From Sphingomonas hengshuiensis (GTDB taxonomy: Bacteria; Pseudomonadota; Alphaproteobacteria; Sphingomonadales; Sphingomonadaceae), in the NCBI RefSeq assembly GCF_000935025.1, contig NZ_CP010836.1:2976001-3040000 (forward strand): 64,000 bases of DNA, given 5' to 3'. Within the stretch, counting starts at the first letter, position 1, and every line of letters starts with the position of its first letter. The position numbers and the translations under genes were made by a program. Shown here in pieces: positions 36,677 through 55,604 of this stretch. A model generated the notes under the pieces. The model ran no database searches. It was not told the DNA's origin and saw only the letters and a list, made by a program, of their open reading frames with translations.

Positions 36677-36690
36677 TGACGCACCCGGGT

Positions 36691-36702
36691 TTGTTAGACA
36701 AT
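36691..36702. promoter_or_regulatory. Motif-B operator candidate (TTGTTAGACAAT)
   Basis: TTGT-TAG-ACAA is a perfect 4-bp dyad with three-base spacer, the layout of FadR/GntR operators, and differs at one base from the 12-mers at 14424 and 58771. An AT-rich stretch (TTATATTAT, 36706-36714) beside it could hold -10 elements for the Rieske operon or the small plus-strand gene. Confidence 0.5.
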
Positions 36703-36764
36703 AAGTTATATTATCCTGCCGTGACGCGAAAGTCACTAGCTATCGTGCCCTCGGAGAAGCTGTT

Positions 36765-37058
36765 TTGGATCTCGACGACGTCCTGCCCGTGGAGAATTTT
36801 TCCGATCTGACGATCCAGTTGCTGTCGGAGCGGCTCCTGCGCTCGCGTTCGCCCGAACAGTTCATCTATCGCGAAAGCGAAATGGACGAGCTTTGGCGGT
36901 TGCTCGACATCGCGATTCGCTCGGGCGATCCCGACGGACTTCGCGACGAGGCAAGGCTGCGGCAGATGCGCGAGATCGTTCACCGCGCGCACGATCTGGT
37001 CGGGATGGACGGCAAGCCGCAAGAGGCGGCCGCGGTGCTTCGCGAAGCGCTGGTCTGA
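36765..37058 (+). CDS. Small protein of unknown function, 97 residues
   Basis: I do not recognise it. The product is acidic and mostly helical by appearance, without Cys, membrane segment or signal peptide: it begins MDLDDVLPVENFSDL, has a repeated Leu/Arg pattern (LLSERLLRSRSPEQF, MDELWRLLDIA) and ends QEAAAVLREALV. Start TTG 36765 has GGAG eight bases ahead. It diverges from the Rieske operon and converges on the LigZ-like gene, so it may be an accessory or assembly factor for one of them; that is inference. Confidence 0.55.
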   Translation: MDLDDVLPVENFSDLTIQLLSERLLRSRSPEQFIYRESEMDELWRLLDIAIRSGDPDGLRDEARLRQMREIVHRAHDLVGMDGKPQEAAAVLREALV

Positions 37059-37070
37059 AACGCCCCCTCC

Positions 37071-38063
37071 TCAACGCCAATAGACGAAGCCCATCGCATT
37101 GCCCGTGCCGGCTTCGCTGCGATAACAGGGCACGTAATCGAGGACATGCGGCTCCAGCCCCCGTTGAGCCATCGCGCTTGCCACGGGCATCCAGTTCTTC
37201 ATTTCCGACGTGCCGTCGCGGAACGTTTTCTCGCCCAGCGCCAGCGCGGGCTCGAAATCGCGATTTCGGATTGCATCGAGGAAAGTGCGATCGACGCTCT
37301 CGTCGATCACGAAATGGGTCAGCCCACCGCTGGCGATCAGCGCAACGCGCTTGTCGCTATCCCATCCCCGGATCGCTTCGAGCAGCGATCCGCCGAGCTT
37401 GTAGCAGCGGCGCGCGCTGGGCTGGTTGGGGGGATAGAAGGTATTGATTGTCACCATCACGCTGGGGCACGGTCGATCGCGCATGATGCGGCGATAGACG
37501 AAGCCCCAGGCGTGCGGAGTCTCGCTGCGCGGCATCTGGGCGAGCGCGGCGACATCGAATTCGTCCGTCATCGCCTGACGGATGATAGCCAGTGCGAGGT
37601 CCGGGCACCCCGGATAGTCTGCGCCGCCGGCGGGGATGTACCCCTTGAGCGAGGCTTCGATCCCCGGAGGTAATTCCTTGAGCCGTTCGGGGCCGAATTC
37701 ATAATTGGTGATGGTATCGCCATAATGGACCGCGAAGGCGGGATTGAGCGCGGGGCGATAAATCTCGTTCTGGTCGTTGCCGACGACCACCGCGACATCG
37801 ATCCGGGCTTCCTCGAACAAGTCCGCCAGCCGCTCGATATTGGCCTGGCACCGCGCCTGCCGCTCGTCCCACACCGCCTTGACCGTCTGTTCGGCGAGGC
37901 CTTCACCCGCGCGTGCGGCGACCAGTTCGTCGAACGACCAGGTTCCCCCCTTCCACGCGTGGCAATTGGCCTTGTCGGCGGGAACGCGCACGCCCCAGGT
38001 CTCGGTTTTGGTCACCAGCATCGGTCCGTGGCTGGTTCCGATACCCAATACGATCTCGGCCAT
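37071..38063 (-). CDS. ligZ: LigB-family extradiol ring-cleavage dioxygenase, LigZ-like
   Basis: A 330-residue type-II extradiol dioxygenase using Fe(II). The first iron ligand is in GIGTSHGPML near the N-terminus; VVGNDQNEIY, SVMVTINTFYPPNQP and VALIASGGLTHFVID hold the remaining ligand and catalytic regions. The N-terminus (MAEIVLGIGTSHGPM) and the end (CYRSEAGTGNAMGFVYWR) fit the subgroup of LigZ, which opens the ring of O-demethylated biphenyl acids. No separate alpha subunit (LigA) is seen, as for LigZ. Start ATG 38063; a motif-A site separates it from the divergent monooxygenase gene. Confidence 0.78.
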   Translation of the reverse strand: MAEIVLGIGTSHGPMLVTKTETWGVRVPADKANCHAWKGGTWSFDELVAARAGEGLAEQTVKAVWDERQARCQANIERLADLFEEARIDVAVVVGNDQNEIYRPALNPAFAVHYGDTITNYEFGPERLKELPPGIEASLKGYIPAGGADYPGCPDLALAIIRQAMTDEFDVAALAQMPRSETPHAWGFVYRRIMRDRPCPSVMVTINTFYPPNQPSARRCYKLGGSLLEAIRGWDSDKRVALIASGGLTHFVIDESVDRTFLDAIRNRDFEPALALGEKTFRDGTSEMKNWMPVASAMAQRGLEPHVLDYVPCYRSEAGTGNAMGFVYWR

Positions 38064-38218: not shown

Positions 38219-39454
38219 ATGGCAAGCAAGGCCGATACGATGGATGGCACGCTCGACGTTCAGGCTGACTGGCCGGTCGTGGAGACGAGCGCCGACGCAT
38301 TGGCGAAAGTGCGTGCGCTGCTGCCCGAGATCGGCGCGAGCGACGCCAAGTTCGAGCAGGACCGGCGCGTTTCCGACGCCGTGGTCGAATCGATGCGCGC
38401 GAGCGGGTTGTTCGGGCTGGTGATGCCCCGCAATCTGGGCGGTTCAGAGCGCGGTTTCGCGGATCTCGTCCGGGTGACTGCCGAGATTGGCGCGGTTTCG
38501 GGCTCGGCTGCCTGGGTCTATGGCGTGCTCGCCGGGCATAGCTGGCTAATAAACCTGTTCCCCGAGGAAGCGCAGCGCGACGTGATGCGCGATCCGACGA
38601 CGTTGATCGCGACGGTGTTCCGGCTGGCCGGCGAAGTCGTCGAAGAAGGGGACGGCTATCGGCTAAGCGGGGGGCTCGGCCGCTTCTGCTCGGGTATCGA
38701 TTATGCGACCTGGGTGATCATCGGCAACGCCGTCAAGCGCGCCGACGGCAGCGTCGAGCCGCGCTTTTTCGTGGTGCCCAAATCGGACATTCAGGTGCTC
38801 GACGATTGGCACACGATGGGCATGCGCGCGACCGGGAGCCGCTCGATCAAGATCGACGACGCCTTCATTCCAGCGTATCGCAGCTGTTCGCTCGCCGACA
38901 TGCTCCGTGGGTCGACCCCGGGCGCGCGCGTCCATGACGGTGCGATCTACCGGATGCCCTTCTCCAGCGTCGCGCCTTTCTCGATCGTCGGTGCGCCGCT
39001 CGGCATGGCCAAGGGCATGGTCCAGCGCTTCGCGCAGGAACTGGGCGGCAAGCTGGCCGGCGCCGATCCGCTCGACATCGCGGAGCAATCCGCGACGCTC
39101 GCGCGCATCGCCGAAGCCTCGGCCGAGATCGACGCGGCGCTCGCGCTGGTGATTTCCGATGCCGAGATGATCGATCGCGCCACCGATCCGCGCGAGATTA
39201 CTCCGCTGCTCAGCGCGCAGATATCGCGCGACTGGGCCTGGGCGGTCCAGCGCGCCCGCCACGCCGCGAACCGCATCTTCGAGGCGTCAGGCGGGACCGC
39301 GATCTACGACGGCCAGGCGATGCAGCAGATGTTCCGCGACTTGAATTCCGGCGCGCAGCATTTCGCCTTCACCTGGGATCGCGCGATGACCGGCTATGGA
39401 CGCGCCGCAGCGGGGCTAAAGGCTGGCGATTTCACCCTTCCCAAGCGCAAGTGA
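38219..39454 (+). CDS. Flavin-dependent monooxygenase, acyl-CoA dehydrogenase fold (HsaA-like)
   Basis: A 411-residue group D flavin monooxygenase, oxygenase component of a two-component system. It has the acyl-CoA-dehydrogenase layout: helical N-terminal part with MRASGLFGLVMPRNLGGSERGF, the mid-domain SGGLGRFCSGIDYATW and WHTMGMRATGSRSIKIDD, and the C-terminal bundle with FEASGGTAIYDGQAMQQMFRDL. Relatives hydroxylate phenols or sulfur compounds with FMNH2 or FADH2 supplied by a reductase, here likely the protein at 34594. GAGAAGGG precedes ATG 38219. It heads a plus-strand set with DoxX-like E, a small membrane protein and an amidohydrolase. Confidence 0.82.
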   Translation: MASKADTMDGTLDVQADWPVVETSADALAKVRALLPEIGASDAKFEQDRRVSDAVVESMRASGLFGLVMPRNLGGSERGFADLVRVTAEIGAVSGSAAWVYGVLAGHSWLINLFPEEAQRDVMRDPTTLIATVFRLAGEVVEEGDGYRLSGGLGRFCSGIDYATWVIIGNAVKRADGSVEPRFFVVPKSDIQVLDDWHTMGMRATGSRSIKIDDAFIPAYRSCSLADMLRGSTPGARVHDGAIYRMPFSSVAPFSIVGAPLGMAKGMVQRFAQELGGKLAGADPLDIAEQSATLARIAEASAEIDAALALVISDAEMIDRATDPREITPLLSAQISRDWAWAVQRARHAANRIFEASGGTAIYDGQAMQQMFRDLNSGAQHFAFTWDRAMTGYGRAAAGLKAGDFTLPKRK

Positions 39455-39487
39455 AGCGAGTCAGTCTTACGGGATAGGGGAAAGGTG

Positions 39488-39937
39488 ATGTGGCGCGCGA
39501 TCGAGAAATATGGAGTGATCTTCTGCCGCTTCTATCTGGGCGGATTCAACTTAATTTCGGGTCTCAACTACTTCATTCTGTTCTGGCCCCAGCCGAAGAT
39601 CGCCGACACCGCAGGCAATGCGTTCGTGCTCGCGTCGATGGAGCTCAACCTTTTCACGATCGCCAAGTTTATCGAGATATTCGGCGGCGCCTGCCTGGTA
39701 TTCAATCGCTTCGTTCCGCTCGGGCTGGTGGTGCTGATGCCGGTGACGCTCAACATCTTCCTGGTCAACGTGCCCTGGTCGCCTTTTCCGCACATCCAGA
39801 TGTCGGTCGCGCGCAATCTGGCGATGCACCTGGTCCTGCTCGCGGCCTATGCCAACTATTTCTATCCGATGCTCAGATTCCGCTCGGCGCCGCAGCCGGT
39901 CTGGCGCGACCCGGCACGGATCATACGGTCTCTCTGA
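39488..39937 (+). CDS. DoxX-like integral membrane protein (copy E)
   Basis: A 149-residue protein with four helices, the shortest copy: FYLGGFNLISGLNYFILFWP, FTIAKFIEIFGGACLVFNRFVPLGLVVLMPVTLNIFLVN and a last helix AMHLVLLAAYANYFYP. SGLNYF, the KF.E.FGG..L..NRFVPL block and the YANYFYPML ending match the other copies. GGGGAAAGG precedes ATG 39488. It follows the monooxygenase gene by 33 bases. Function unknown. Confidence 0.75.
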   Translation: MWRAIEKYGVIFCRFYLGGFNLISGLNYFILFWPQPKIADTAGNAFVLASMELNLFTIAKFIEIFGGACLVFNRFVPLGLVVLMPVTLNIFLVNVPWSPFPHIQMSVARNLAMHLVLLAAYANYFYPMLRFRSAPQPVWRDPARIIRSL

Positions 39938-40166: not shown

Positions 40167-40973
40167 ATGCCCCCGATCGACGCGCACTGCCACGCCTCGC
40201 CGCTCTGGTACGAACCGGTCGAGGTCCTGCTGTTCCAGATGGACCGGGGCGGCGTCGAAAAGGCCGTCCTTACCCAGTTGCTCGGCCAGTTCCACAACGA
40301 CTATCAGCAGGAGTGCGTCAAGCGCTTCCCGACTCGGCTCGCCAGTGTCGGCGCCGTCGATCCGCAAGCCCTGGATGCGCCGCAACAGGTACGGAAATGG
40401 GCAGGCCGCGGCATGGTGGGCCTGCGCCTGCGCCCCGATGCGCGCAGCCCCGCCGGAGATCCGTTCGCGATCTGGCGCGCTGCTGCCGACGCCGGTCTCG
40501 CGATCAGTTGCGCGGGACCCACGGCGCTGTTTCTGTCGGAGGGCTTTGCCGAGCTGGCCGCAGCATTTCCGCACATGCCGTTCATCCTCGAACATCTTGG
40601 CGGCTGGGTGCGGCCCGATTGCGATCGGAGCGACGCCAGCTGGCAAGCCATTCTGGCGCTTGCCCGCCTCGCCAATGTCAGCATGAAGATCGCCGCGCTG
40701 GGCCAGCTCGCCCCGCGCCCGATCAGTCAGCGACTGCCTGAGGCGCCCCCAATTCTCGATGATGCCGAGGGCGCGCGACTGATTCAGGCACTCGACGCCT
40801 TCGGTGCCGCACGGTTGCTCTGGGGGAGCGACTTTCCCGTGGTTTCTTCGCGCGAGGGCTATGGAAACGCACTGGCCTGGACGCGCGCATTGTTCGCCGA
40901 TCGGCCCCCGGCCGAGGCGGACGCGATATTCCGTGGCAATGCCCAGCGGATTTTCTTCGGAGATCGGCCTTGA
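40167..40973 (+). CDS. Amidohydrolase-2 family protein (LigI/LigW group)
   Basis: A 268-residue TIM-barrel metal enzyme. The metal set is visible: IDAHCHASP (His7, His9), FILEHLGGWV, and LLWGSDFPVVSS (Asp). This family includes 2-pyrone-4,6-dicarboxylate hydrolase (LigI) and aromatic decarboxylases such as LigW. AAGGAAA precedes ATG 40167. In a LigZ/LigY-type setting a decarboxylase or lactone hydrolase is expected, but the sequence does not decide between them. Confidence 0.78.
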   Translation: MPPIDAHCHASPLWYEPVEVLLFQMDRGGVEKAVLTQLLGQFHNDYQQECVKRFPTRLASVGAVDPQALDAPQQVRKWAGRGMVGLRLRPDARSPAGDPFAIWRAAADAGLAISCAGPTALFLSEGFAELAAAFPHMPFILEHLGGWVRPDCDRSDASWQAILALARLANVSMKIAALGQLAPRPISQRLPEAPPILDDAEGARLIQALDAFGAARLLWGSDFPVVSSREGYGNALAWTRALFADRPPAEADAIFRGNAQRIFFGDRP

Positions 40974-40986: not shown

Positions 40987-41030
40987 ATTGCTATACAAAA
41001 CGGTATATCATTGTGACGGGATTGTATCAT
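40987..41030. promoter_or_regulatory. Cluster of motif-A sites overlapping a start codon
   Basis: Three related elements follow one another: ATTGCTATACAA (40987-40998), GGTATATCATTG (41002-41013) and ATTGTATCAT (41021-41030). The last covers the ATG of the next gene (41029), so a bound regulator could block both transcription and ribosome access. Confidence 0.5.
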
Positions 41031-42198
41031 GGCCTATGACGCTGCGGAGACGATCATCTGCGTTTCAGCCAACGGCAAATCGGACTCATCGAGCGAAAAG
41101 GCGGCGCTACGCATGCTGATCGCGACCGCAGACGGCCTGCTCGACTTCCGCCGCGCGGCGCCGACAGGCGAATGGGTACGGCAGGAAAAAATGCTGCTCG
41201 AAGGGCAACATGTGAGCTCCCTGGTCTACGACGACCCAACCGGACTCCTATTTGCTTGCCTGCATTTCGAAGGTGGGCTGCTGGTCAGCGCCGATCGTGG
41301 CGAGACTTGGGAAGCGCGCAACAAGGGCCTGCAATCCGGCCATGCCTATTCGCTGCTCGTCCAGCATGTCGGCGACCAGACAATCCTCAACCTCGGCACC
41401 GAGCCGGTGATGTTCTATCGCAGCTTCGATCTCGGCAAGAGCTGGACGGCCTATCCCAAATGCATCGCCGTGGAGGGTACCGAACATTGGTTCTTCCCTC
41501 GCTCCGCGCCGCACATCAAGCATATCGCCGCGCACCCGGCGCGGCCCGACCGGATCTACATCTGCGTCGAGCAGGGCGATCTGCTGCGCAGCGATGACGG
41601 CGGTGAGAATTGGACCTCCATCTGCTCGATGGAGCGCGAGGACGACAAGTTCCGCCGCGACCAGCACCGTGTCACCTTCTACCGCGACAATCCCGACGAG
41701 ATATTCCTCACCACGGGGATCGGCGTCTATCATTCGACCGATGGGGGCGACAATTGGGAGCGGCTGACCGACACCTCGCACCCATGCGCCTATCCCGACC
41801 CCTTCTTCGTCCATCCCGACAAGGAGGAATTGTTCATGGTCGGCGCGGGCATGAACCCAAATCCCAATTGGGGCGCGGCGGGGACCGCCTATCCCAAGTT
41901 CATGCACAGCCTGGATCACGGCAGGAATTGGGAGCCGGTGATGAACGGCATGCCCGATCCCATCGCCGGCAACCTTGAAGTGGCCGCGATGCACGTCTCC
42001 GCCGAGGGCGGCGTCGAACTCTATACCGGCTCCTCGTGCGGCGAGCTTTTCATGAGCACGGACGGCGCGCAAAGCTGGACGCGGGTGGGGGACAAGCTGC
42101 CGGCAATGTCGAAGGGGCCGCATTTTCGCCACTTCCTGCCGCCGGAGGAACGCATCGCCTATGAGGAGAAGCTCAAGGCGATGAACGCCTTCGCGTGA
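41029..42198 (+). CDS. Cytosolic BNR/sortilin-like beta-propeller protein
   Basis: A 389-residue protein without signal peptide, made of Asp-box repeats: VSADRGETWEA, SFDLGKSWTA, SDDGGENWTS, STDGGDNWER, SLDHGRNWEP and STDGAQSWTR. This is a VPS10/BNR-type propeller of at least six blades. There is no sialidase Arg triad that I can point to. Related intracellular propellers occur in aromatic clusters without known function; a lactonase or isomerase role is possible. It is preceded by a dense operator cluster and followed by an amidohydrolase gene. Confidence 0.72.
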   Translation: MAYDAAETIICVSANGKSDSSSEKAALRMLIATADGLLDFRRAAPTGEWVRQEKMLLEGQHVSSLVYDDPTGLLFACLHFEGGLLVSADRGETWEARNKGLQSGHAYSLLVQHVGDQTILNLGTEPVMFYRSFDLGKSWTAYPKCIAVEGTEHWFFPRSAPHIKHIAAHPARPDRIYICVEQGDLLRSDDGGENWTSICSMEREDDKFRRDQHRVTFYRDNPDEIFLTTGIGVYHSTDGGDNWERLTDTSHPCAYPDPFFVHPDKEELFMVGAGMNPNPNWGAAGTAYPKFMHSLDHGRNWEPVMNGMPDPIAGNLEVAAMHVSAEGGVELYTGSSCGELFMSTDGAQSWTRVGDKLPAMSKGPHFRHFLPPEERIAYEEKLKAMNAFA

Positions 42199-42268
42199 GC
42201 CGGTGGAATGGGGGGGCCGCTTCCGGCCCGAGATTGATTCCCGGGCGGGTTGGGATTTGGGCGTCGTG

Positions 42269-43108
42269 ATGATCGATTCCCACGCGCATCTGATCAGCGA
42301 CGATAACGTCGCCTATCCACGGGTCGGGGCAGACTGCACGGCGAGCTGCATCATGACCGTCGAGCAGTTGCTGTCCGAGATGGACGCAACCGGCGTCGAT
42401 CGAGCGGTGCTTGTGCAGCGCGGCTCGGTCTATGGGTTCGACAGCGCCTACGTCTGTGACAGCGCGGCTCGATATCCGAAGCGGCTGGCCGCGGTCTGCT
42501 CGATCGATGGATCGCGATCGGATGGCGCAGAGATGGTTCGCTATTGGGTGAAGGACCGCGGCGCCGCCGGCATCCGGCTGATGGAGCTCGTCCGAGGCGA
42601 GGACGCGGGCTGGCTCGGCTCGACCGAACCGGGCGGTGCCTGGCGGGAGGCCGCCGAACGCGACGTGCCGGTCTGCGTCCATTTCTTTCCCTGGAATCGG
42701 TTGGAAGGGCTGGCCCGGCTACGGTCGATCCTCGCCGACATCCCGGGCCTGAAGGTGGTGATCGATCATTTCGGCGCAATGCAGAGCGACGCCGGACCGC
42801 CGCATCATGGCGTCGATGCGGCGCTGGAGCGGCTCGCTGACTTCGCGGGCGTCAACGTCAAGTTCACGACGATCCCGCTCGGCAAGCTGGCGGAGGCCGG
42901 CATCGACGCAGGCCCGGTCCTGCGCCGGGTGATGGACCTGTTTGGGGCCGAGCGGATGATGTGGGGATCCGATATCGCCCAGTCCCCGGGCAGCTATGCC
43001 CATATGACCGAGCTGGCCCGCAAGGCGGTGCGCGAACTGGCCAGCGCGGACCAGGAGGCGATTCTGAGCGGCACCGCCCGTCGCATCTACGGCGCCCGCT
43101 GGGCCTGA
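42269..43108 (+). CDS. Amidohydrolase-2 family protein, second copy
   Basis: A 279-residue TIM-barrel enzyme: MIDSHAHLI gives metal residues His5 and His7; VPVCVHFFPWN, KVVIDHFGAM (His) and MMWGSDIAQS (Asp) complete the set. It is only distantly similar to the protein at 40167. I start at ATG 42269 because the metal motif then sits at the N-terminus; GTG 42203 would add 22 residues without family character. Likely lactone hydrolase or decarboxylase in the ring-fission route. Confidence 0.76.
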   Translation: MIDSHAHLISDDNVAYPRVGADCTASCIMTVEQLLSEMDATGVDRAVLVQRGSVYGFDSAYVCDSAARYPKRLAAVCSIDGSRSDGAEMVRYWVKDRGAAGIRLMELVRGEDAGWLGSTEPGGAWREAAERDVPVCVHFFPWNRLEGLARLRSILADIPGLKVVIDHFGAMQSDAGPPHHGVDAALERLADFAGVNVKFTTIPLGKLAEAGIDAGPVLRRVMDLFGAERMMWGSDIAQSPGSYAHMTELARKAVRELASADQEAILSGTARRIYGARWA

Positions 43109-43123: not shown

Positions 43124-43780
43124 TCAGTTTCGCCGCGTCTGAAGCTGGTGGTATCTGAAGTGCCTGCGCGCTTCGTCGAGCCGCATTCCGGTCCGGCAGG
43201 CTTCGCGGATCGATTCCTCCGCAGCATGGATTTCCTCGGCGGCGCCGAGCACCGCTTCCTCATGCGCCTGCGGGATCACGATCACTCCGTCCGGATCGCC
43301 GCGCAGGATATCTCCGGGGGCCACTCGCGCGCCGCCGATATTCACCGCGCAGCCAGTCTGCTCGACCTGTACGCGATCCTTGCCCGTGCGCATCCAATGG
43401 CCGACGCTGAACACCGGATAGCCCAGGCTGCGGCACAGATGCACGTCGCGGCTGATCCCATCGATCACGGTCCCCGCCAGGCCGCGGCGATGCGCGATCT
43501 CTGTCAGGATATCGCCCCAGATCGTCGCGTCGGTGCGCCCGCCATTGTCGATCACGACGACATGCCCGGGCGGCACATCATCGATATAGTCGCCCACCGT
43601 CCCCGGCGGCGTCGACGCCGGGCCGCACAGCATCGTAAACGCCCTGCCCGCCATGCGGAAATCGGGGTCGCGCCCGGCGATCGCATAGCATTGGCCGACG
43701 ATGCCCAGCCGGTCGAGCGCGTCGCTCAGCGTGGCGGTGTCCAGCGCGCCCGCGCGCGATACGTTGCGGTCGTCCGTCAT
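43124..43780 (-). CDS. RraA-family aldolase (HMG/CHA aldolase type), copy 1
   Basis: A 218-residue class-II aldolase-like protein of the RraA/LigK fold, which cleaves 4-hydroxy-4-methyl-2-oxoglutarate or 4-carboxy-4-hydroxy-2-oxoadipate to pyruvate plus pyruvate or oxaloacetate. Landmarks are TLSDALDRLGIVG, DIDDVPPGHVVVIDNGGRTDATIWGDILTEIAHRRGLAGTVIDGISRD; the Arg-Asp (SRD) is the substrate/metal pair, and GDPDGVIVIPQ follows. The start ATG 43780 overlaps the stop of copy 2 by one base (TGATG). Acts in the cytosol at the last step of ring fission. Confidence 0.83.
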   Translation of the reverse strand: MTDDRNVSRAGALDTATLSDALDRLGIVGQCYAIAGRDPDFRMAGRAFTMLCGPASTPPGTVGDYIDDVPPGHVVVIDNGGRTDATIWGDILTEIAHRRGLAGTVIDGISRDVHLCRSLGYPVFSVGHWMRTGKDRVQVEQTGCAVNIGGARVAPGDILRGDPDGVIVIPQAHEEAVLGAAEEIHAAEESIREACRTGMRLDEARRHFRYHQLQTRRN

Positions 43781-44448
43781 CAGTCCTCGCGTTTCAGCAT
43801 ATATTCGTAATTGGCGCCCAGCACGGCGCTGGCCAGTTCGTCGGACTCGAGCCTGCGGACCATCTCCGCTTCGCGCCGGGCGATCTCCTCGGCCGCTGCC
43901 AGCACGCGTTCGATATCGGCGGGTGCCACGAACACCGCCGCGCTCGAATCGCAGACCACATAAAAGCCCGGATGCACCGTGAAGGCGCCGACACCGATCG
44001 GCACGTCGGTGGCATCTTCGTACACGCGGGCACGGGCGGTTCGCGCCGTGTAGCCGCGCGAGAAGACCGGGAAGTTGATCTCGCAGGCCTCGTCGATGTC
44101 GCGCACCGGGCCTTCGGCGATGACCCCGGCGACGCCCTTCTGCTTGGCCCCGCGCGAGAGGATCCCACCCCAGCAACCGGCATCGATCCCGGTCGATTGC
44201 TCGACGACGATCACCTCGCCCGGCGCGCAGGCATCGATCGCCGCAGCGCCGAGATGAACCGGCGGGCGGCCTGCCGGCGGGCTTCCCGCCTTCAGTTTGA
44301 CGGTATGCACCCGCCCGGCGATGCGCCGCCCCGGCATTGCCGAGCGTAGGCCGGTGACGCAGCCCGGCAGCCCGAGCTTGTCGAGCGCATCCGAGACTGC
44401 GCAGGCATCGAGACGTTCGAGCCGGGCGACGAAGGGATCGCTGCTCAT
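43780..44448 (-). CDS. RraA-family aldolase, copy 2
   Basis: A 222-residue RraA-fold protein: AVSDALDKLGLPG, APGEVIVVEQSTGIDAGCWGGILSRGAKQKGVAGVIAEGPVRDIDEA with the Arg-Asp pair, then NFPVFSRG. It is clearly diverged from copy 1 (the region after RD and the C-terminus differ), so the two may take different substrates or form a mixed oligomer; RraA proteins are usually trimers or hexamers. Start and stop overlap both neighbours (ATGA with the LigY-like gene, TGATG with copy 1). Confidence 0.82.
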   Translation of the reverse strand: MSSDPFVARLERLDACAVSDALDKLGLPGCVTGLRSAMPGRRIAGRVHTVKLKAGSPPAGRPPVHLGAAAIDACAPGEVIVVEQSTGIDAGCWGGILSRGAKQKGVAGVIAEGPVRDIDEACEINFPVFSRGYTARTARARVYEDATDVPIGVGAFTVHPGFYVVCDSSAAVFVAPADIERVLAAAEEIARREAEMVRRLESDELASAVLGANYEYMLKRED

Positions 44449-45464
44449 AGCGGCCCCTGCCCCGGCAGCGTGCCGAGATTGAACACCTTCCTGGCATTGC
44501 CTTCGAAGATCGCGGTCTTGTCGGCATCGCTCAGCCAGTCAAAGCCCTGGATGAAGGGCGCGATGTGATCGAAGGTATGGCCGGTATCCGGATTCATCGC
44601 CGAGCCGACGCCCGGACATTCGGCGCCGAACAGGCAGCGATCGGCGCCGACGGTCTTGATCAGCAGCCGCAGCGCTTCCTCCGAATAAAGCACGGTGTCG
44701 AAATAGAGATTGCGCATCGAATCGAGGAACTCGAATCCCCGCCGAGCCGCCGACGAGCGGAACCGGCCGATATGATAGGGGATCGCACCGCCGCCATGAC
44801 TGACCACGATCTTGAGGCTGGGAAAATGCTTGAACACGTCCGATTCCAGCAAGCCGTAGACTGCGATCGTCTCTTCAAGCAGGAAATTGAGGGTGTAAGG
44901 CGCGCGCCGCGAACGCGACCCCGCCGAATGGATGTGCGCCGGCACGTCCAGTTCGCACAGTTTCTCGTATAGCGGATACCAATAACGATCGCCCATCGGC
45001 GGCGGCTCGGTCCCCGAATTCTCATAGGGATCGGGATTGAGCAGGCAGCCCTTGAAACCCATGCGCACGCAACGCTCCAGCTCAGGCAGCACGTCGGCGA
45101 TCGGATCGCCCGCGACCTGCGGCAGGCCCGCGATCGGCGCAAAGCGGTCCGGCAATAGCTGGGCTTGCCGCGCGATGATGTTGTTGGTCTCTTCGGTGAA
45201 CCAATGAACCAGATTGCCCGGCTTTTCCGAGTGCATCATCTGGAACGGCCGGGGGCTGAGCAGCTGGTACTTGGTCCCGACCCGGTCGAGCATATCGAGA
45301 TGGCCGCACGGCGCCATCTCCTTCTTGTTGGTATAGGCTAGGATTTCGGCGTCGCTAAGCTCGGGGAAACGGCGTCCGTGCTCGCCCCGATGCGAGAGCA
45401 ACAGCGACTTGTAGACCCACAATTCCGCCGGCGCGCTCACATGTCCGTGACAATCTATAATCAT
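44445..45464 (-). CDS. ligY: Amidohydrolase-superfamily hydrolase, LigY/LigJ-like
   Basis: A 339-residue TIM-barrel metal hydrolase. IIDCHGHVSAP supplies the first two His; VVSHGGGAIPYHIGRF and RCLFGAECPG complete the site. LISPRPFQMM-like text (LLSPRPFQMMHSEKPG), FKGCLLNPDPYENSG and DRYWYPLYEKLCELDVPAHIH resemble LigY, the C-C hydrolase acting after LigZ in biphenyl-acid breakdown, and more loosely the oxalomesaconate hydratase LigJ. It leads a three-gene minus-strand operon with two aldolases. GGAGAGG lies nine bases before the ATG. Confidence 0.75.
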   Translation of the reverse strand: MIIDCHGHVSAPAELWVYKSLLLSHRGEHGRRFPELSDAEILAYTNKKEMAPCGHLDMLDRVGTKYQLLSPRPFQMMHSEKPGNLVHWFTEETNNIIARQAQLLPDRFAPIAGLPQVAGDPIADVLPELERCVRMGFKGCLLNPDPYENSGTEPPPMGDRYWYPLYEKLCELDVPAHIHSAGSRSRRAPYTLNFLLEETIAVYGLLESDVFKHFPSLKIVVSHGGGAIPYHIGRFRSSAARRGFEFLDSMRNLYFDTVLYSEEALRLLIKTVGADRCLFGAECPGVGSAMNPDTGHTFDHIAPFIQGFDWLSDADKTAIFEGNARKVFNLGTLPGQGPL

Positions 45465-45622: not shown

Positions 45623-45707
45623 CGCGGCGGCATAAGTTAGCGACGCGAAGCCGCAGCGTGCGTCGGTCGTGGCGCGCGGCAACCGAATGGGGACCAAGGG
45701 TAGAATA

Positions 45708-46373: not shown

Positions 46374-47965
46374 CTCGGCGGCGTCCGGCCGAGGATGAGG
46401 TCGGACGCCTTTTCCGCAATCATCATCACCGGCGCGTTGGTGTTGCCCCCCACGACACGGGGCATCACCGATGCGTCCACCACGCGCAGCGCCTCGAGTC
46501 CGTAAACGCGCAGGTCCGGATCGACGACGGCGCCGATCGCGCAGGTGCTGGAGGCGTGGTGCGCCAGGATGCTGGTGCTGCGGATATAGGCGTCGATTTC
46601 GGCCTCGTCCTCCACGCCGCCGGGCATCAGTTCCTTGCCGACCAGACTGCCGAGCGGCTCGGTGCGGAAGAAGGCGCGCATCTGGCAGATCGCGGCGCGC
46701 ATCGTCGCCAGGTCGCGCGGGTCGTCATACATGCCGATGCGGATCTCGGGCGGCGCCGCCGGATCAGCCGATCGCAGGCGCACCGAACCGCGGCTGCGCG
46801 GGCGAAGCAGGACGCAGAACGCCGTCATCGCATGGCCGGCGCCCTTGCGAATGCCGGGAAACCAGACCCGCGCATCCAGCCGGGTCGGATAGAGGTTCGC
46901 CTTGATATCCGGGCGGGCCAGTTTCGCTTCGGTACGCATGAAGCCAAATGCAGTGACGGGCAGTTGCGTCGCGCGTGCCGCCATTCCCAGCATGTAGCGC
47001 GTCACGTTCCCGGCGAGCCGGTCGAAGCGCAGATTGGCTTCGAAGCCGATCGGCCGGACCAGTTCGTAGCCGACGCCCGTCAGCGGATGCTCTTGCAGAT
47101 TACGGCCGACCGGCAGATCGGCAACGACGTCCAGTCCCAGCCCGGCCAGCGCTTCGGCAGGGCCAACCCCGCTGAGCATCAGCAGCTTGGGGGAGTTGTA
47201 CGCGCCCGCCGACAGGATCACTTCGCGCTCCGCCCGGATGATCCGGCTTCGCCCGCGCTTGACGATCTCGACGCCCACCGCGCGCCGGCCCTCCAGAACG
47301 ATGCGCGTCACGGTCGCATTGGTGCGCACCTGCAGGTTGGGGCGGTTGGTGGCGGGGCGAAGATATTGCGTTGCGGCACTGGCGCGCCTGCCGTTGGCCA
47401 CCGTCACCTCGGGCGGCGAGAACCCCTCGCCCGCATGCACGCCATGCTGATCGTTGCTGACGACATGGCCCAAGTTGCGCGCGGTCTCCATCGTCGCGTC
47501 GAACAGGGGTCCGGCGGCGTCGACCGGGGTGACGGTCAGCGGCCCATCGCCGCCGTGCCATTCGCTCGCGCCGCGCCAATTCCCCTCGGACCGCCGGAAA
47601 TAGGGAAGCACATCGCTCCAGCCCCAGCCGGTTGCGCCCAGCGATTCCCATTCGTCATAGTCGAGCGGGTGACCGCGCGAATAGACCATGCCGTTGATCG
47701 ACGACGTACCGCCCAGGCATTTGCCGCGGGGGAGCCACAGCTTGCGACCGCCCAGCTCATGCTCGGGCTCGCTCCAGTAATTCCACGACAGCCGCTCGAC
47801 ATACTGGAGCTTCATGAAGGCGAACGGCATTCGCAGGAACGGGTGGCGATCCTGACCTCCTGCTTCGATCAGCAGCACCGAATTTGCAGGGTCCTCGGAC
47901 AGCCGATTGGCTAGCACGCAGCCGGCCGACCCTGCGCCGACGATGATGAAATCCGCCCTGTCCAC
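46370..47965 (-). CDS. GMC-family FAD oxidoreductase (alcohol/choline dehydrogenase type)
   Basis: A 531-residue glucose-methanol-choline oxidoreductase that oxidises alcohols. The FAD motif DFIIVGAGSAGCVLANRLSE opens the protein, followed by the GMC signature PRGKCLGGTSSINGMVYSRG, the second signature GAYNSPKLLMLSGVGPAE, and the catalytic C-terminal HHASSTC (His) with the GGNTNAPVMMIAEKASDLI ending. It diverges from an aldehyde dehydrogenase gene over a tandem motif-A site, so a two-step oxidation of a side-chain alcohol to a carboxylate is plausible. Cytosolic, no signal peptide. Confidence 0.88.
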   Translation of the reverse strand: MDRADFIIVGAGSAGCVLANRLSEDPANSVLLIEAGGQDRHPFLRMPFAFMKLQYVERLSWNYWSEPEHELGGRKLWLPRGKCLGGTSSINGMVYSRGHPLDYDEWESLGATGWGWSDVLPYFRRSEGNWRGASEWHGGDGPLTVTPVDAAGPLFDATMETARNLGHVVSNDQHGVHAGEGFSPPEVTVANGRRASAATQYLRPATNRPNLQVRTNATVTRIVLEGRRAVGVEIVKRGRSRIIRAEREVILSAGAYNSPKLLMLSGVGPAEALAGLGLDVVADLPVGRNLQEHPLTGVGYELVRPIGFEANLRFDRLAGNVTRYMLGMAARATQLPVTAFGFMRTEAKLARPDIKANLYPTRLDARVWFPGIRKGAGHAMTAFCVLLRPRSRGSVRLRSADPAAPPEIRIGMYDDPRDLATMRAAICQMRAFFRTEPLGSLVGKELMPGGVEDEAEIDAYIRSTSILAHHASSTCAIGAVVDPDLRVYGLEALRVVDASVMPRVVGGNTNAPVMMIAEKASDLILGRTPPS

Positions 47966-47989
47966 GCGTTCCTGCGCCTCACTGCCGCG

Positions 47990-48015
47990 ATTGTATTACA
48001 TCATTGTATTACAAT
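47990..48015. promoter_or_regulatory. Tandem motif-A operator
   Basis: ATTGTATTACA occurs twice, at 47990-48000 and 48003-48013, as direct repeats 13 bases apart. The second copy extends to ATTGTA-T-TACAAT, a perfect 6-bp dyad (48003-48015). It lies between the divergent GMC and aldehyde dehydrogenase genes. Confidence 0.65.
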
Positions 48016-48050
48016 CTTGGCTCATGCAAGCTTGGCGCGAGGAGAGCGCA

Positions 48051-49466
48051 GTGAACGCGGATCGATTCCATATCGCCGGCCGATGGGTCGAACCCCTCGG
48101 CACGGAGCGCATCGCGGTGTACAACCCCGCCGACCTCACGGTCCTCGGCCATGCCGTGATGGCCAATGAAGCCGACGCGGATCGCGCAGTGGCGGCTGCC
48201 CGCACCGCCTTCGCAAAGTGGCAAGGCAGCAGCCGGGAGGAAAGGATCGCGCTGATCCGCCGCATGCGCGCCGCCTTCGAGCAACTCGCACCCGAGTTGG
48301 AGCGCCATCTGGTGCGCGAGATCGGCATCACGACGATGGTCGCGCAGGGCCAGACACGCATGACACTGTCGCATTTCGACGGGATGCTCGAGGTGCTGCC
48401 CGGATATGCCTTCAGCCAGGCGATCGGCGACGGCGTCGAGCTTGTCCGCGAGCCGATCGGAGTCGTGGCCGCGATCACAAGCTGGAACGCGCCGGTCAGC
48501 CAGATGCTGTGCAAGGCCGTGCCCGCAATCGCCGCGGGCTGCGCCGTGGTCATCAAGCCCAGCGAACAGGCGCCCTTGTGCGCGATGCTGCTCGCCGAGG
48601 CGATGGCGCGCGCCGACATTCCCCCCGGGTTGCTGAATATCCTCAACGGGCGCGGGCATGATTGCGGGCGGCGGCTGGCCGAGCATCCCGATGTCGATAT
48701 GGTTTCCTTCACCGGATCGGTCGCCGGCGGCGGCGCGATGGCCGCGGCTGCGGCGCCGACGATCAAGCGCGTCCATCAGGAACTTGGCGGCAAATCGCCC
48801 AACATCCTGCTGCCCGACGCCGATTTCGCCGAGGCCGTGCCCAAGGGCGTGCTGATCTGCATGATGGCCGCGGGCCAGGCCTGTGCCGCGCCGACGCGAA
48901 TGATCGTGCCCGAAGATCGCTTCGAGCACGTCGCCGCGCTCGCGGTCGCGGCGGCGCAGAAGCTCGCGGTCGGCCCGCCCGACCAGCCCGGCATCGCCTT
49001 CGGCCCTCTCGCCAACGAAGCGCAATTCCGCCGCGTCAATGCGATCCTCGAAAAGGCGATAGCCGACGGACAGCCATTGCTCGCCGGCGGCCCGGGACGG
49101 CCCAGCCATCTCGCGACGGGCTATTACATCGCACCGACCATCTTCGGCCCGGTCTCGCCCGACGCCGGCATCGCGCGCGACGAGATTTTCGGCCCCGTGC
49201 TGTGCATCCTTACCTATCGCGACATGGACGAGGCGATCCGCATCGCCAACGCGACCGAATACGGCCTGTCCGCCTATATCGAATCCGCCGATCCGGCGGC
49301 GGCGCGGCGCATCGCCGGGGCGCTGCGGGCGGGATATGTCAACATCAACTATCCGCCGTGGAGCGCCGCCGCGCCCTTTGGCGGGTTCAAACGCTCGGGC
49401 AATGGCAAGCAGTACGGAGTCTGGGGATTCGAGGAATTCCTCGAGACCAAGGCGATCGTCGGATGA
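48051..49466 (+). CDS. NAD(P)-dependent aldehyde dehydrogenase
   Basis: A 471-residue ALDH oxidising an aldehyde to a carboxylate in the cytosol. Motifs: ITSWNAPVSQMLCKAVPAIAAGCAVVIKPSEQAP (cofactor site), FTGSVAGGG, HQELGGKSPN (general-base Glu), AAGQACAAPTR (nucleophile Cys) and EIFGPVLCILTY. Start GTG 48051 has GGAG six bases ahead. The stop overlaps the start of the next MFS gene (ATGA). With the divergent GMC oxidase it can form an alcohol-to-acid pair. Confidence 0.9.
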   Translation: MNADRFHIAGRWVEPLGTERIAVYNPADLTVLGHAVMANEADADRAVAAARTAFAKWQGSSREERIALIRRMRAAFEQLAPELERHLVREIGITTMVAQGQTRMTLSHFDGMLEVLPGYAFSQAIGDGVELVREPIGVVAAITSWNAPVSQMLCKAVPAIAAGCAVVIKPSEQAPLCAMLLAEAMARADIPPGLLNILNGRGHDCGRRLAEHPDVDMVSFTGSVAGGGAMAAAAAPTIKRVHQELGGKSPNILLPDADFAEAVPKGVLICMMAAGQACAAPTRMIVPEDRFEHVAALAVAAAQKLAVGPPDQPGIAFGPLANEAQFRRVNAILEKAIADGQPLLAGGPGRPSHLATGYYIAPTIFGPVSPDAGIARDEIFGPVLCILTYRDMDEAIRIANATEYGLSAYIESADPAAARRIAGALRAGYVNINYPPWSAAAPFGGFKRSGNGKQYGVWGFEEFLETKAIVG

Positions 49467-52256: not shown

Positions 52257-53369
52257 GTGAAGACACGCGCCGCAGTGGCTTTCGAAGCGAAGAAGCCGCT
52301 GGAGATCGTCGAGCTGGACCTCGAAGGGCCCAACGCCGGTGAAGTGCTGGTCGAGATCATGGCGACCGGCATCTGCCACACCGACGCCTATACGCTCGAC
52401 GGGCTCGACAGCGAGGGGCTGTTCCCCTCGGTGCTGGGGCATGAAGGCGCGGGCATCGTGCGCGAAGTCGGCGCGGGGGTGACCAGCGTGGCGCCGGGCG
52501 ACCATGTCATCCCGCTCTACACCCCCGAATGCCGCCAGTGTAAGTCGTGCCTCAGCGGCAAGACCAACCTGTGCACCGCGATCCGCGCGACGCAGGGCAA
52601 GGGGCTGATGCCCGACGGCACCACGCGTTTCAGCTACAAGGGGCAGCCGATCTTCCATTATATGGGCTGCTCGACTTTCTCGAACTTCACCGTGCTCCCC
52701 GAGATCGCCGTCGCGAAGATCCGCGAGGACGCGCCGTTCAAGACGAGCTGCTATATCGGCTGCGGCGTCACCACCGGGGTGGGCGCAGTGGTCAACACCG
52801 CGAAGGTCCAGGTCGGCGACAATATCGTCGTGTTCGGGCTGGGCGGCATCGGCCTCAACGTGCTCCAGGGTGCGCGGCTGGCGGGCGCGAACCGGATCAT
52901 CGGCGTCGACATCAACCCTGACCGCGAGGAATGGGGCCGCCGCTTCGGGATGACCGATTTCGTCGACGGCCGCGGCAAGTCGCGCGAGCAGACGATCGCC
53001 GAAATCCTGGCGCTCACCGATGGCGGCGCCGACTTCACCTTCGACTGCACCGGCAATACCGAAGTGATGCGTACCGCGCTGGAGGCCTGCCATCGCGGCT
53101 GGGGCACCAGCATCGTGATCGGCGTCGCCGAAGCGGGCAAGGAAATCAGCACCCGCCCGTTCCAGCTCGTCACCGGGCGCAACTGGCGCGGCACCGCGTT
53201 CGGCGGCGCCAAGGGCCGCACCGATGTGCCGAAGATCGTCGACTGGTACATGAACGGCAAGATCGAGATCGATCCGATGATCACCCATGTCCTCACGCTG
53301 GAGGAGATCAACAAGGGCTTCGACCTGATGCATGCGGGCGAGAGCATCCGCAGCGTCGTGGTGTATTGA
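52257..53369 (+). CDS. frmA: S-(hydroxymethyl)glutathione dehydrogenase (class III alcohol dehydrogenase)
   Basis: A 370-residue zinc enzyme oxidising the formaldehyde-glutathione adduct to S-formylglutathione with NAD. Catalytic zinc: [10 protein letters not shown] (Cys40) and GHEGAG; structural zinc: [16 protein letters not shown]; cofactor: [32 protein letters not shown] and [17 protein letters not shown] are class-III markers. Start GTG 52257 has GGGAG six bases ahead. It leads an operon with ferredoxin, ferredoxin reductase and aldolase genes. That fits removal of formaldehyde made by an O-demethylase. Confidence 0.92.
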
Positions 53370-53374
53370 GCGCG

Positions 53375-53692
53375 ATGGCCGAGATCCGCATCACCACCCG
53401 CGACGGCGTGGAACGTCCGGTCGCGATGACGCCCGGCTATTCGCTGATGGAAGCGATCCGCGACGCGGGCATCGACGAACTGATGGCGCTGTGCGGCGGC
53501 TCCTGCTCGTGCGCGACGTGCCATGTCTTCATCGATCCCGAATTCGCCGACCGGCTTCCGCCGATCAGCGAGGACGAGGACGATCTGCTCGACAGCTCGG
53601 ACCATCGCGGACCGACATCGCGCCTCTCGTGCCAGATCCCGCTGTCCGACGCGCTCGACGGCCTCGCCGCGACGATCGCGCCCGAGGACTGA
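53375..53692 (+). CDS. [2Fe-2S] ferredoxin, adrenodoxin type
   Basis: A 105-residue vertebrate-type ferredoxin. Cluster ligands are in [14 protein letters not shown] (C-x5-C-x2-C) and [39 protein letters not shown] is the usual C-terminal text. It carries electrons from the reductase encoded two bases downstream to an oxygenase, most likely the Rieske protein at 35411, comparable to the ferredoxin LigXc. Start ATG 53375 is five bases after the dehydrogenase stop. Confidence 0.9.
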
Positions 53693-53694
53693 GC

Positions 53695-54951
53695 ATGGCG
53701 GAGCACGCAGCAGATCATGACGTAATCATCGTCGGCACCGGCCATGGCGGCGCGCAGGCGGCGATCGCGCTACGCCAGCACGGGTTCGAAGGCGCGATCC
53801 TGATGCTCGGGCGCGACAGCGTTCCGCCCTATGAACGCCCTCCCCTGTCCAAGGACTATCTCGCGCGCGAAAAGGCGTTCGAGCGCATCCAGATCCGACC
53901 TGCTGCCTTCTGGACCGACAAGCGCATCGCGCTGCGGCTCGATGCCACCGTAACCGCAGTCGATCCGGCGGGGCACCGGGTGACGCTGGCGGGGGGCGAC
54001 AGCCTTTCCTACGGCAAGCTGATCTGGGCGGCTGGGGGCGATCCGCGGCGGCTGACGTGCGCCGGGGGCGACCTCGCCGGAGTCCACAGCGTCCGCGACA
54101 AAGCCGATGTCGACCGGATGATGGCCGAGTTGGATGCCGGCGCCAAGACGGTCGTCGTGATCGGCGGCGGTTATGTCGGGCTCGAGGCGGCGGCGGTGCT
54201 GACCAAGCTCGGCTGTACCGTCACGCTGATCGAAGCGCTCGATCGGGTGCTCGCGCGGGTGGCGGGCAAGGCGCTTTCCGCCTTTTACGAAGCCGAACAT
54301 CGCGCGCATGGCGTGACCGTGCGCACCGGCTGCGCGGTCGATTGCATCACCGGCGACGGCGTCAGGGCGAACGGCGTCCGGCTGTCCGACGGAACGGTCC
54401 TGCCGGCCGACATGGTCGTCGTCGGGATCGGCATTGTCCCGGCGGTCGCGCCACTGACCGCAGCGGGCGCCGCGGGCACCAATGGCGTCGACGTCGACGC
54501 CTTCTGCCGCACGTCGCTGCCCGACATCCATGCGATCGGCGATTGCGCCGCGCATGCCAACGCCTTTGCCGGCGGCGCGGTCATCCGGCTGGAGAGCGTC
54601 CAGAACGCCAACGACATGGCATCGATCGCCGCGGCATCGATCTGCGGCGATCCGCTGCGCTATCATGCCCTGCCCTGGTTCTGGTCGAACCAATACGACC
54701 TCAAGCTGCAGACCGCAGGCCTGAGCCTGGACTATGACGCCACCGTGCTGCGCGGCGATCCCGCGACGCGCAGCTTTTCGGTCGTCTATCTTCGCGAGGG
54801 GCGGGTGATCGCGCTCGACTGCGTCAATGCGGTCAAGGATTACGTTCAGGGCCGCAAGATGGTCGAGGCCGGCAGCGTGGTCGATCCGGCGCTGCTTGCC
54901 GACACCGCGCGTCCGCTGAAGGCGCTCCTGCAGATGGAGTTACCGGCATGA
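53695..54951 (+). CDS. Ferredoxin reductase, FAD/NAD-dependent
   Basis: A 418-residue flavoprotein of the putidaredoxin/rubredoxin-reductase type. FAD motif [33 protein letters not shown] (FAD contact typical of this class), NAD motif [22 protein letters not shown] and the second FAD motif [12 protein letters not shown] are in the usual order; the C-terminal interface domain with [15 protein letters not shown] is present. It would feed the adrenodoxin-type ferredoxin encoded just before it and possibly the detached ferredoxin at 16872. Its stop overlaps the aldolase start (ATGA). Confidence 0.9.
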
Positions 54952-55604
54952 CCGATCCGAAATCCGGCATCCTCGACAATAGCGAGCGCGTTGCGCCCGA
55001 GATCGTGGCGCGGGCGCAGGGCCTTCCCACGGCCACCGTGCACGAGGCCGGCGGCAAGATCGGCGTCATGCCCTATGCGATCAAGCCGGTGCATGCGCAC
55101 TTCCGCGTGTGCGGACCCGCGCTGACCGTGCAAGGCCCGCCCGGCGACAATCTGTGGCTCCATTATGCGATCTATGCCGCCCAGCCGGGAGACGTCATCG
55201 TCGCGCATTGTTCGGGCAAGTTCGATCATGGCTATTGGGGCGAAGTCATGTCGACTGCGGCAAAGGCGCGCGGGCTGGGCGGACTCGTCCTTGATGGGTG
55301 CGTGCGCGATCTCGATCTGCTCGGCGACGTCGGGTTTCCGATCTTCGCGCGCGGGCTTTGCATCCGCGGCACGGGCAAGGACCGCGAGGCGACCGGCTGG
55401 ATCAATGCGCCGGTGGCGTTCGAGGACCTGACCGTCCGCCCCGGCGATCTCGTCATCGGCGATGCCGATGGCGTCGTCATCGTCCCCCGCGAGCGCGTCG
55501 GCGAGGTTGTTGCCGCGAGCCATCAGCGCGACCGCGACGAGATCGAGATCTGCCGGCGCCTGGAACAAGGCGAGACCACGCTCGATATCTATTCGCTGGG
55601 CTGA
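54948..55604 (+). CDS. RraA-family aldolase, copy 3 (LigK-like)
   Basis: A 218-residue RraA/LigK-type aldolase: [13 protein letters not shown] at the start, [48 protein letters not shown] with the Arg-Asp pair, then [12 protein letters not shown] and [14 protein letters not shown]. This copy is closest in pattern to 4-carboxy-4-hydroxy-2-oxoadipate aldolases. It ends an operon that also removes formaldehyde, so carbon from both the ring and the methoxy group is processed together. A 13-bp palindrome (55602-55614) spans its stop and that of the convergent gene. Confidence 0.84.

Follow-up and report, generated by a model that had tools for sequence, protein, structure and literature searches.

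Does a group of genes for LigX-, LigZ- and LigY-like enzymes on the chromosome of Sphingomonas hengshuiensis encode the known route for degradation of the biphenyl 5,5'-dehydrodivanillate (DDVA), or a related route for another compound? The stretch of DNA analyzed here, in the following called the window, comprises 64,000 nucleotides of a 5.23 Mb genome (G000, contig C1, positions 2976001-3040000), and its proteins were classed by Pfam, NCBIfam and PDB comparisons. An earlier note, made from the letters of this DNA, had proposed that the genes serve to degrade a methoxylated aromatic which resembles, but differs from, the DDVA degraded by Sphingobium sp. SYK-6. A separate pathway of this kind, for a substrate that may or may not be methoxylated, is supported in that the Rieske oxygenase, LigZ and LigY of the window group with a second LigY cluster of SYK-6. 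We call clusters of the DDVA kind type I and those of the kind found in the window and in the second SYK-6 cluster type II. Comparisons of the encoded proteins support the view that the type II route is a second version of the LigX/LigZ/LigY pathway, which is present in SYK-6, too, and we lean slightly towards a biaryl pathway parallel to the DDVA route that would act on a 5,5'-linked biphenyl other than DDVA.

SYK-6 has two clusters with LigY

When the SYK-6 LigY sequence was queried against 397 Sphingomonadaceae genomes (E ≤ 1e-60), matches were obtained in 30 of them. One genome, G144, has a LigY that is 100% identical to SYK-6 LigY, and we take it to be the genome of SYK-6. Around this LigY there are genes for a TonB receptor (28% identical to that of the window), a major facilitator superfamily (MFS) protein (best model 116.6 bits, below cut-off), LigZ, two RraA proteins, a LigXa-type Rieske oxygenase, a MarR regulator and LigW (752 bits to PDB 4icm). 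This gene set agrees with the DDVA cluster in PMC6874591, and the locus tags for that cluster in Table 1 of PMC12997858 agree with the region; the genes named there are ligXa, ligZ, ligY, ddvK, ddvR and ddvT.

A second LigY of G144, at 2098877, is 61% identical to SYK-6 LigY. Its cluster (L112, G144:C1:2089000-2108900, 2.09-2.11 Mb) contains genes for a GntR regulator, an HsaA-like monooxygenase, a beta-propeller, LigY2, LigZ2, RraA2, RraA1, RraA3, a flavin reductase, a YciI-like protein, LigXa2, the short amidohydrolase AH and a LysR regulator; in all, 14 genes of the window, that for LysR among them, have a counterpart there with an identity of 35-82%. No description of this second cluster was found in the open-licence literature of PubMed Central, a scope outside of which most papers of subscription journals lie.

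The window groups with the second SYK-6 cluster

LigY2 of the window (44445-45464, minus strand), in which the earlier note had rightly seen an amidohydrolase resembling LigY, matched the OH-DDVA meta-cleavage compound hydrolase 5vn5 over residues 1-330 with 508 bits and the 4-oxalomesaconate hydratase 6dxq with 221 bits. Judged by this strong full-length match, with other amidohydrolases weaker, LigY2 is a member of the LigY family. It is 78% identical to the LigY of the second SYK-6 cluster versus 65% to the DDVA LigY. In a LigY tree of 92 rows it is found in a clade of 26 rows (100/100), together with the second SYK-6 LigY and with sequences from Novosphingobium, Marinicaulis, Cupriavidus and Paraburkholderia, and not in the DDVA clade; the DDVA LigY of SYK-6 is located in a separate clade of eight rows (95/84).

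Similarly, the Rieske oxygenase LigXa2 (35411-36676, minus strand) is 72% identical to its counterpart in the second SYK-6 cluster versus 32% to SYK-6 LigXa. A Rieske tree of 29 rows unites it with the second SYK-6 copy and Burkholderiales sequences in a clade of 12 rows (100/100) and places SYK-6 LigXa in another clade of six rows (100/100). Given the 32% identity and the separate clades, LigXa2 is not an orthologue of LigXa. As long branches meet in this tree, the joining of the two Rieske clades to each other and to the other rows is unsure. Also, one member of the LigXa clade (L024) is not located at a type I LigY, and LigXa and LigY types are therefore not matched everywhere. LigXa2 carries a LigXa_C domain (130 bits, cut-off 27), a domain which also occurs in enzymes of other specificity. 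For the pathway at 36677-55604 the earlier note had listed a Rieske oxygenase whose ferredoxin and reductase are proteins of their own. The oxygenase gene is present, although its end at 36676 falls just outside this interval, and Pfam matches above cut-off were obtained for the [2Fe-2S] ferredoxin (53375-53692, plus strand; Fer2 30.8 bits, cut-off 21) and for the reductase (53695-54951, plus strand; Pyr_redox_2 and Reductase_C), which would have LigXc- and LigXd-like roles.

The third enzyme, LigZ2 (37071-38063, minus strand), is the LigB-family dioxygenase with LigZ-like features noted previously (Pfam LigB 55.8 bits, cut-off 26.3) and a putative class III extradiol dioxygenase. It is 63% identical to the LigZ of the second SYK-6 cluster versus 46% to the DDVA LigZ, and its LigZ-family similarity extends over the full length (46% over 336 columns). 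His12 and the C-terminal Glu, part of a GTSE motif, are kept and aligned with LigB, and they would have the same roles as the LigB residues. In the four LigZ rows inspected (window, L110, L112 and L012) a Gln (GNDQ) stands where the one LigB row (L001) has a His (NDH); we take this His to be at an iron-ligand position.

The LigY and Rieske trees thus place the window with the second SYK-6 cluster and apart from the DDVA cluster, and the trees, the identities and the gene content exclude that the window simply contains the SYK-6 DDVA cluster. The window shares with the DDVA cluster a Rieske oxygenase that has its ferredoxin and its reductase as separate proteins, a LigZ-type and a LigY-type enzyme and an RraA2-RraA1 pair. 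In contrast to the DDVA cluster, the window has in addition the HsaA-like monooxygenase, a flavin reductase, AH, a second short amidohydrolase AH2, the propeller, a 97-amino-acid (97-aa) protein, the YciI-like protein and a Zn-dependent alcohol dehydrogenase (ADH), and its regulator is of the GntR/FCD type (45669-46373, plus strand, divergent from LigY2), whereas the DDVA cluster has the MarR-type DdvR.

Genes that accompany type II LigY

With LigY as query 79 loci were obtained, and 15 more stretches were added from other genomes. Gene content was compared for 22 loci with type II LigY, eight with type I LigY and 58 with another LigY. A match was E ≤ 1e-8 over 40% of the query, and each place was assigned to the query that matched it best; L120-L123, duplicates of loci in the set, were omitted, as was L124. 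L018 was put among the others because its LigY piece lies outside the type II clade, while its neighbour genes and the sister piece L068 resemble type II. Locus lengths vary (below 15 kb in 3 of the 22 type II and below 12 kb in 18 of the 58 other loci), and absences in this comparison are therefore no proof.

Genes for AH2 (42203-43108, plus strand) were found in 18/22 type II loci, ADH (57603-58709, minus strand; 66-86% identity) in 16, the HsaA-like monooxygenase (38219-39454, plus strand) and AH (40167-40973, plus strand) in 15 each, the BNR propeller (41029-42198, plus strand) in 13 and the 97-aa protein (36765-37058, plus strand) in 12, the last being the same 12 loci that contain LigXa2, and none of them was found in the 66 remaining loci (0/8 type I, 0/58 other). 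The GntR gene accompanied 19/22 type II, 0/8 type I and 4/58 other loci. RraA1 (22/22, 7/8 and 25/58, respectively) and RraA2 (22/22, 7/8 and 31/58) are thus common to both types.

Type II LigY (60-65% identical to SYK-6 LigY) occurs in eight Sphingomonadaceae genomes (G000, G117, G138, G144, G195, G270, G300 and G380) and type I LigY (69-100%) in eight as well, with both types present in G144; 15 genomes have only relatives of 38-48% identity. G270 and G391 are outside the LigY tree and were typed by identity only. Since G391, which belongs to the SYK-6 genus and has a 99% identical DDVA LigY, is without a second LigY at E ≤ 1e-60, type II would have been gained or lost within this genus. The propeller profile scored at least 385 bits in nine of the 397 genomes, that is, in all eight type II genomes and in one of the 389 others (G102), which corresponds to a hypergeometric probability of 6e-16 for eight shared among eight and nine of 397, a value that ignores kinship of the genomes. 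Among the eight type I genomes G144 alone has the propeller, and G017 shows a match of 142 bits only. In a phylum-wide sample LigY at E ≤ 1e-90 was detected in 1/398 genomes, the window's own, which is too sparse for co-occurrence, and six other propeller matches of the 398 scored 141-157 bits versus 385-647 bits in the nine Sphingomonadaceae genomes.

A compact type II set is found in seven Cupriavidus/Paraburkholderia loci (L010, L012-L016 and L072), with the order AH2-ADH-AH-LigXa2-97aa-HsaA-propeller followed by divergent LigY2-LigZ2-RraA2-RraA1-RraA3; a reductase gene lies between, and its L012 copy matches ferredoxin-type reductase models, all below cut-off. Other groupings recur: L131 (G270:C138) combines a Fer2-domain reductase, the propeller, an HsaA-like and a LigXa-like gene without LigY and with a 73% identical LigZ, and in L133 (G195) propeller, HsaA-like, AH2-like and LigXa-like genes are found again. 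Propeller, HsaA-like enzyme and Rieske oxygenase therefore seem to travel as a unit. Next to AH2, L132 and L134 encode a third amidohydrolase that is 51-53% identical to SYK-6 LigW, and shorter pieces of 37-44% identity to LigW lie at the ends of L009 and L011. In the window's own genome there are two LigW-like genes elsewhere, one of which (LigW2) was compared and gave 600 bits to the 5-carboxyvanillate decarboxylase structure 4inf, and a strong LigB-family gene (266 bits); apart from LigXa2, all matches of this genome to SYK-6 LigXa amount to 57 bits or less.

A plasmid location of type II was considered and rejected. Matches were obtained in 35 plasmid records, and among the 20 listed one exceeded 60% identity (66.6%); in its position and in the length of its replicon it coincides with the type I LigY found in G134.

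Proposed type II pathway

From the gene identities, orthology, conservation and co-occurrence described above we infer the reactions of the type II route, their order and the substrate. In the sub-clade of the window, a GMC oxidoreductase (46370-47965, minus strand) and an aldehyde dehydrogenase (47907-49466, plus strand; 65-72% identity in 6/22 type II loci) would oxidize a side-chain alcohol to the acid. A GMC oxidase had been counted among the pathway enzymes before; the gene exists, but accompanies only 6/22 type II loci, whose LigY sequences all fall into the sub-clade of the window, and one of the 58 others (L018). LigXa2, together with ferredoxin and reductase, would then take off an O-methyl group, and the formaldehyde formed would be consumed by a class III alcohol dehydrogenase (glutathione-dependent formaldehyde dehydrogenase; 52257-53369, plus strand; TIGR02818 599 bits, cut-off 544). 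O-demethylation is suggested by the gene row 52257, 53375, 53695 and 54948 (RraA3), in which this dehydrogenase forms one operon with ferredoxin and reductase, and it depends on this row because LigXa2 is closer to another Rieske oxygenase (7fhr, see below) than to LigXa. The HsaA-like enzyme and the flavin reductase (34594-35100, minus strand) might put a hydroxyl next to the phenol to give a catechol, the position of this step being a guess. LigZ2 would cleave the catechol ring beside the biaryl bond. From the product, LigY2 would release 4-carboxy-2-hydroxypenta-2,4-dienoate (CHPD) by hydrolysis, with an aryl carboxylate as the other fragment. CHPD would be hydrated by RraA2 and RraA1, and RraA3 would split the product to yield pyruvate. 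A LigW-type enzyme is expected to decarboxylate the aryl acid, which would enter protocatechuate 4,5-cleavage; the LigW-like amidohydrolases next to AH2 suggest that the acid released by LigY2 is decarboxylated like 5-carboxyvanillate. AH, AH2 and the propeller may serve intermediate steps, perhaps with lactones.

The presence of three RraA-type genes, as counted in the earlier note, was confirmed by Pfam. RraA1 (43124-43780, minus strand; PF03737) and RraA2 (43780-44448, minus strand; PF03737) remained below cut-off in every NCBIfam model listed, whereas RraA3 (54948-55604, plus strand), a putative 4-carboxy-4-hydroxy-2-oxoadipate/4-hydroxy-4-methyl-2-oxoglutarate (CHA/HMG) aldolase, exceeded the cut-off of PRK09262 (194 bits, cut-off 179) and stayed under that of TIGR02798 (178.8 bits, cut-off 304.5). 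As the RraA2-RraA1 genes adjoin LigY in both pathway types and their products score below the aldolase cut-offs, with RraA3 above that of PRK09262, the pair is a candidate CHPD hydratase and RraA3 the presumptive aldolase. However, all three proteins keep the R-D motif of RraA-type aldolases, and so RraA1 and RraA2 could be aldolases as well. The high identities of RraA1 (90%) and RraA2 (80%) to their DDVA-cluster counterparts suggest that both routes share the same C6 dienoate; to the second SYK-6 cluster the values are 82% and 53%, respectively.

The two-component monooxygenase of the earlier note can be recognized in the HsaA-like protein, which is conserved in type II, and in the flavin reductase (PF01613, 146 bits, cut-off 27), its likely partner. 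The reductase gene lies on the same strand directly after the YciI-like and Rieske genes, and reductases of 31-36% identity occur in 9/22 type II loci. The HsaA-like protein matched the 3-HSA hydroxylase in the PDB (E 1e-50). With the HsaAB/HsaC/HsaD steroid route the window has in common an HsaA-like enzyme and the logic of flavin hydroxylase, extradiol dioxygenase and C-C hydrolase; in contrast, its HsaA-like protein stays below the cut-off of the NCBIfam HsaA equivalog (265 bits, cut-off 450), and dioxygenase and hydrolase of the steroid route belong to other families. The mhqPOD system of Paenibacillus sp. B2 has the same proposed chemistry of demethylation, extradiol cleavage, C-C hydrolysis, hydration and aldolase reaction, with demethylase, dioxygenase and decarboxylase unrelated to those of SYK-6 according to Table 2 of PMC12673573.

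The propeller at 41029 has a nearly invariant set of residues consisting of His61, His105, His162 and His213, each at or near a strand start in successive repeats, and of Glu125, Glu181 and Glu317. Only the four-His pattern resembles that of carotenoid/lignostilbene cleavage dioxygenase-like propellers; among the 50 matches listed, neither Foldseek nor VIA-align gave a carotenoid or lignostilbene dioxygenase title. The solved protein nearest to the propeller, 3b7f, has a title without function and, in an alignment read by eye, keeps His79, His105, Asp211 and His213, but not His61, His162, Glu125 or Glu181. Two further amidohydrolases had been assigned to the LigI/LigW group. Both are short PF04909 proteins (AH 101 bits, AH2 116 bits), and the LigI likeness stands for AH2, whose nearest solved relative is the putative 2-pyrone-4,6-dicarboxylate hydrolase 2ffi (38.6 bits), but neither resembles LigW. 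AH gave weak matches only (L-fuconolactonase model 30.6 bits, cut-off 400; PDB 4dlf, E 0.0066), and the lactonase-like AH2 remained far below the cut-off of the same model (45.5 of 400). The 97-aa protein, a neighbour of LigXa2 without Pfam match, has 108 relatives at E ≤ 0.001 in a search of 5.8 billion proteins, carries an IYRE.E.D..WR motif and is only partially matched in the second SYK-6 cluster. It is predicted to form four helices (predicted local distance difference test score, pLDDT, 89.8); no solved structure matched this model at E ≤ 0.001, the best hits (0.17) being engineered cytochrome b562 bundles.

Alternative explanations

Several observations weigh against a type II biaryl pathway as drawn here. 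RraA1 and RraA2 of the window resemble their DDVA-cluster counterparts more than those in the SYK-6 type II cluster, so the window cluster is a mosaic. LigXa2 was found in only 12 and LigZ2 in only 11 of the 22 type II stretches, and in the stretch read the second SYK-6 cluster is without matches to AH2, ADH, GMC oxidoreductase and aldehyde dehydrogenase; compared with the window, it has DUF2218 and SnoaL-like genes added. In G102 a propeller is present, but no type II LigY, and the propeller gene (L130) stands among other genes, an HsaA match being absent. The nearest solved relative of LigXa2 is 7fhr, a putative phthalate 4,5-dioxygenase (292 bits versus 164 bits to SYK-6 LigXa), and so LigXa2 may hydroxylate rather than demethylate. 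Finally, activity of the type II enzymes on any given substrate is deduced from their relatives.

The resemblance to phthalate dioxygenase leads to an alternative that we judge improbable, in which LigXa2 is a hydroxylase and the cluster serves an aryl dicarboxylate or other acyl-aryl compound with LigZ2 and LigY2 retargeted. It would be in line with the reductase ending in a Fer2 domain that accompanies a LigXa-like gene in L131, and with the similar reductase of the seven Burkholderiales loci; these reductases are VanB-like. The formaldehyde dehydrogenase in the ferredoxin operon argues against it, as do the LigW-type decarboxylases encoded next to genes of type II and an RraA pair of the DDVA kind. 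Somewhat better placed, but still unlikely in our opinion, is a second DDVA pathway with the same substrate and a different Rieske demethylase and accessory genes. The identities of LigY2 and LigZ2 to the DDVA enzymes (65% and 46%), the nearly equal RraA pair and a genome that has LigW2, yet no other LigXa match above 57 bits, are all consistent with it. However, SYK-6 keeps both sets, the Rieske oxygenases share only 32% identity, and DDVA degradation seems not to need the HsaA-like enzyme, AH, AH2 and the propeller, as these are found in none of the eight type I loci; moreover, loss of ligXa in SYK-6 reportedly abolishes DDVA demethylation.

Least probable, in our estimation, is a biaryl set free from esters of plants, for example hexahydroxydiphenate from ellagitannins or an ester-linked diferulate, with a tannase and esterases acting first and AH and AH2 as lactonases. 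Next to the LigXa2 operon there are a TonB receptor gene, a gene of the tannase family (31406-33274) and four more genes for esterases or hydrolases (at 21577, 23157, 30113 and 33093), and AH2 is lactonase-like. The five esterases of the earlier note thus exist, to the left of 36677, the one at 23157 scoring just under its cut-off (24.7 bits, cut-off 25.8), but their membership in the pathway is rejected, as each has a match in at most one of the 22 type II loci (1, 0, 0, 1 and 0 for 21577, 23157, 30113, 31406 and 33093, respectively). Furthermore, CHPD would not be expected from hexahydroxydiphenate, by our reasoning, and the RraA pair is of the DDVA-pathway kind, which disfavours ellagic acid as well.

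A 5,5'-linked biphenyl other than DDVA thus remains our preferred substrate. In a bolder form of this reading, which we put forward tentatively and hold to be rather doubtful, type II would be another class of bacterial 5,5'-biaryl degradation, so far undescribed, in which Rieske oxygenase, HsaA-type hydroxylase and BNR-type propeller act together, with the propeller as a new metalloenzyme or lactonase and RraA2-RraA1 as CHPD hydratase.

Other genes of the window and of related loci

The YciI-like protein (35121-35408, minus strand; PF03795 56 bits), encoded directly downstream of the Rieske gene on the same strand, has relatives of 49-68% identity in 5/22 type II, 0/8 type I and 0/58 other loci. 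Of the two propellers seen before, that at 41029 is the conserved partner; that at 28749 is present, with both models below their cut-offs, and was rejected as a pathway member as it occurs in 0/22 type II loci. A VanA-type Rieske oxygenase (17218-18396, plus strand; VanA_C 143 bits), with genes for an NMT1-like binding protein and an MFS protein downstream, is by its domain match part of a second demethylase-like operon of the window. Four small, putatively DoxX-like membrane proteins adjoin four different catabolic operons (24340-24858, about 27856-28480 and about 33947-34640, all minus strand, and 39485-39937, plus strand), with a Pfam match for none of them; the last, in the HsaA operon, is found in 7/22 type II and 0/66 other loci.

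The DUF2218 and SnoaL-like genes of the second SYK-6 cluster lie at L112:14820-15724, and no counterpart was noticed in the window. The DDVA region of SYK-6 and type II loci repeatedly encode proteins of the MetE catalytic-domain family (PF01717; L111:5131-6294 and L135:7030-8154), with look-alikes, judged by their protein starts, in L134, L132 and L006. One type II host, Novosphingobium sp. MD-1, is a microcystin degrader, and its isolation history is uninformative. The LigY-LigZ-RraA set of L039 (CAMDML010000061.1), a metagenome-assembled genome titled Klebsiella pneumoniae, groups with metagenome-assembled genomes of Gammaproteobacteria, and this label looks wrong.

Significance

Catabolism of biphenyl-type lignin fragments is usually exemplified by the DDVA route, and surveys of metagenomes detect this route by ligX, ligY and ligW annotations (for instance PMC10269927). 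If a second pathway with LigY- and LigZ-like enzymes has another substrate, such counts become ambiguous, and some of the proteins annotated as OH-DDVA meta-cleavage compound hydrolase would be enzymes of another pathway. The CHPD hydratase of SYK-6 is listed as not identified in Table 2 of PMC12673573, and the RraA2-RraA1 pair would be a ready candidate for this hydration step. As the reference strain SYK-6 itself holds the type II cluster, a direct knock-out test is possible.

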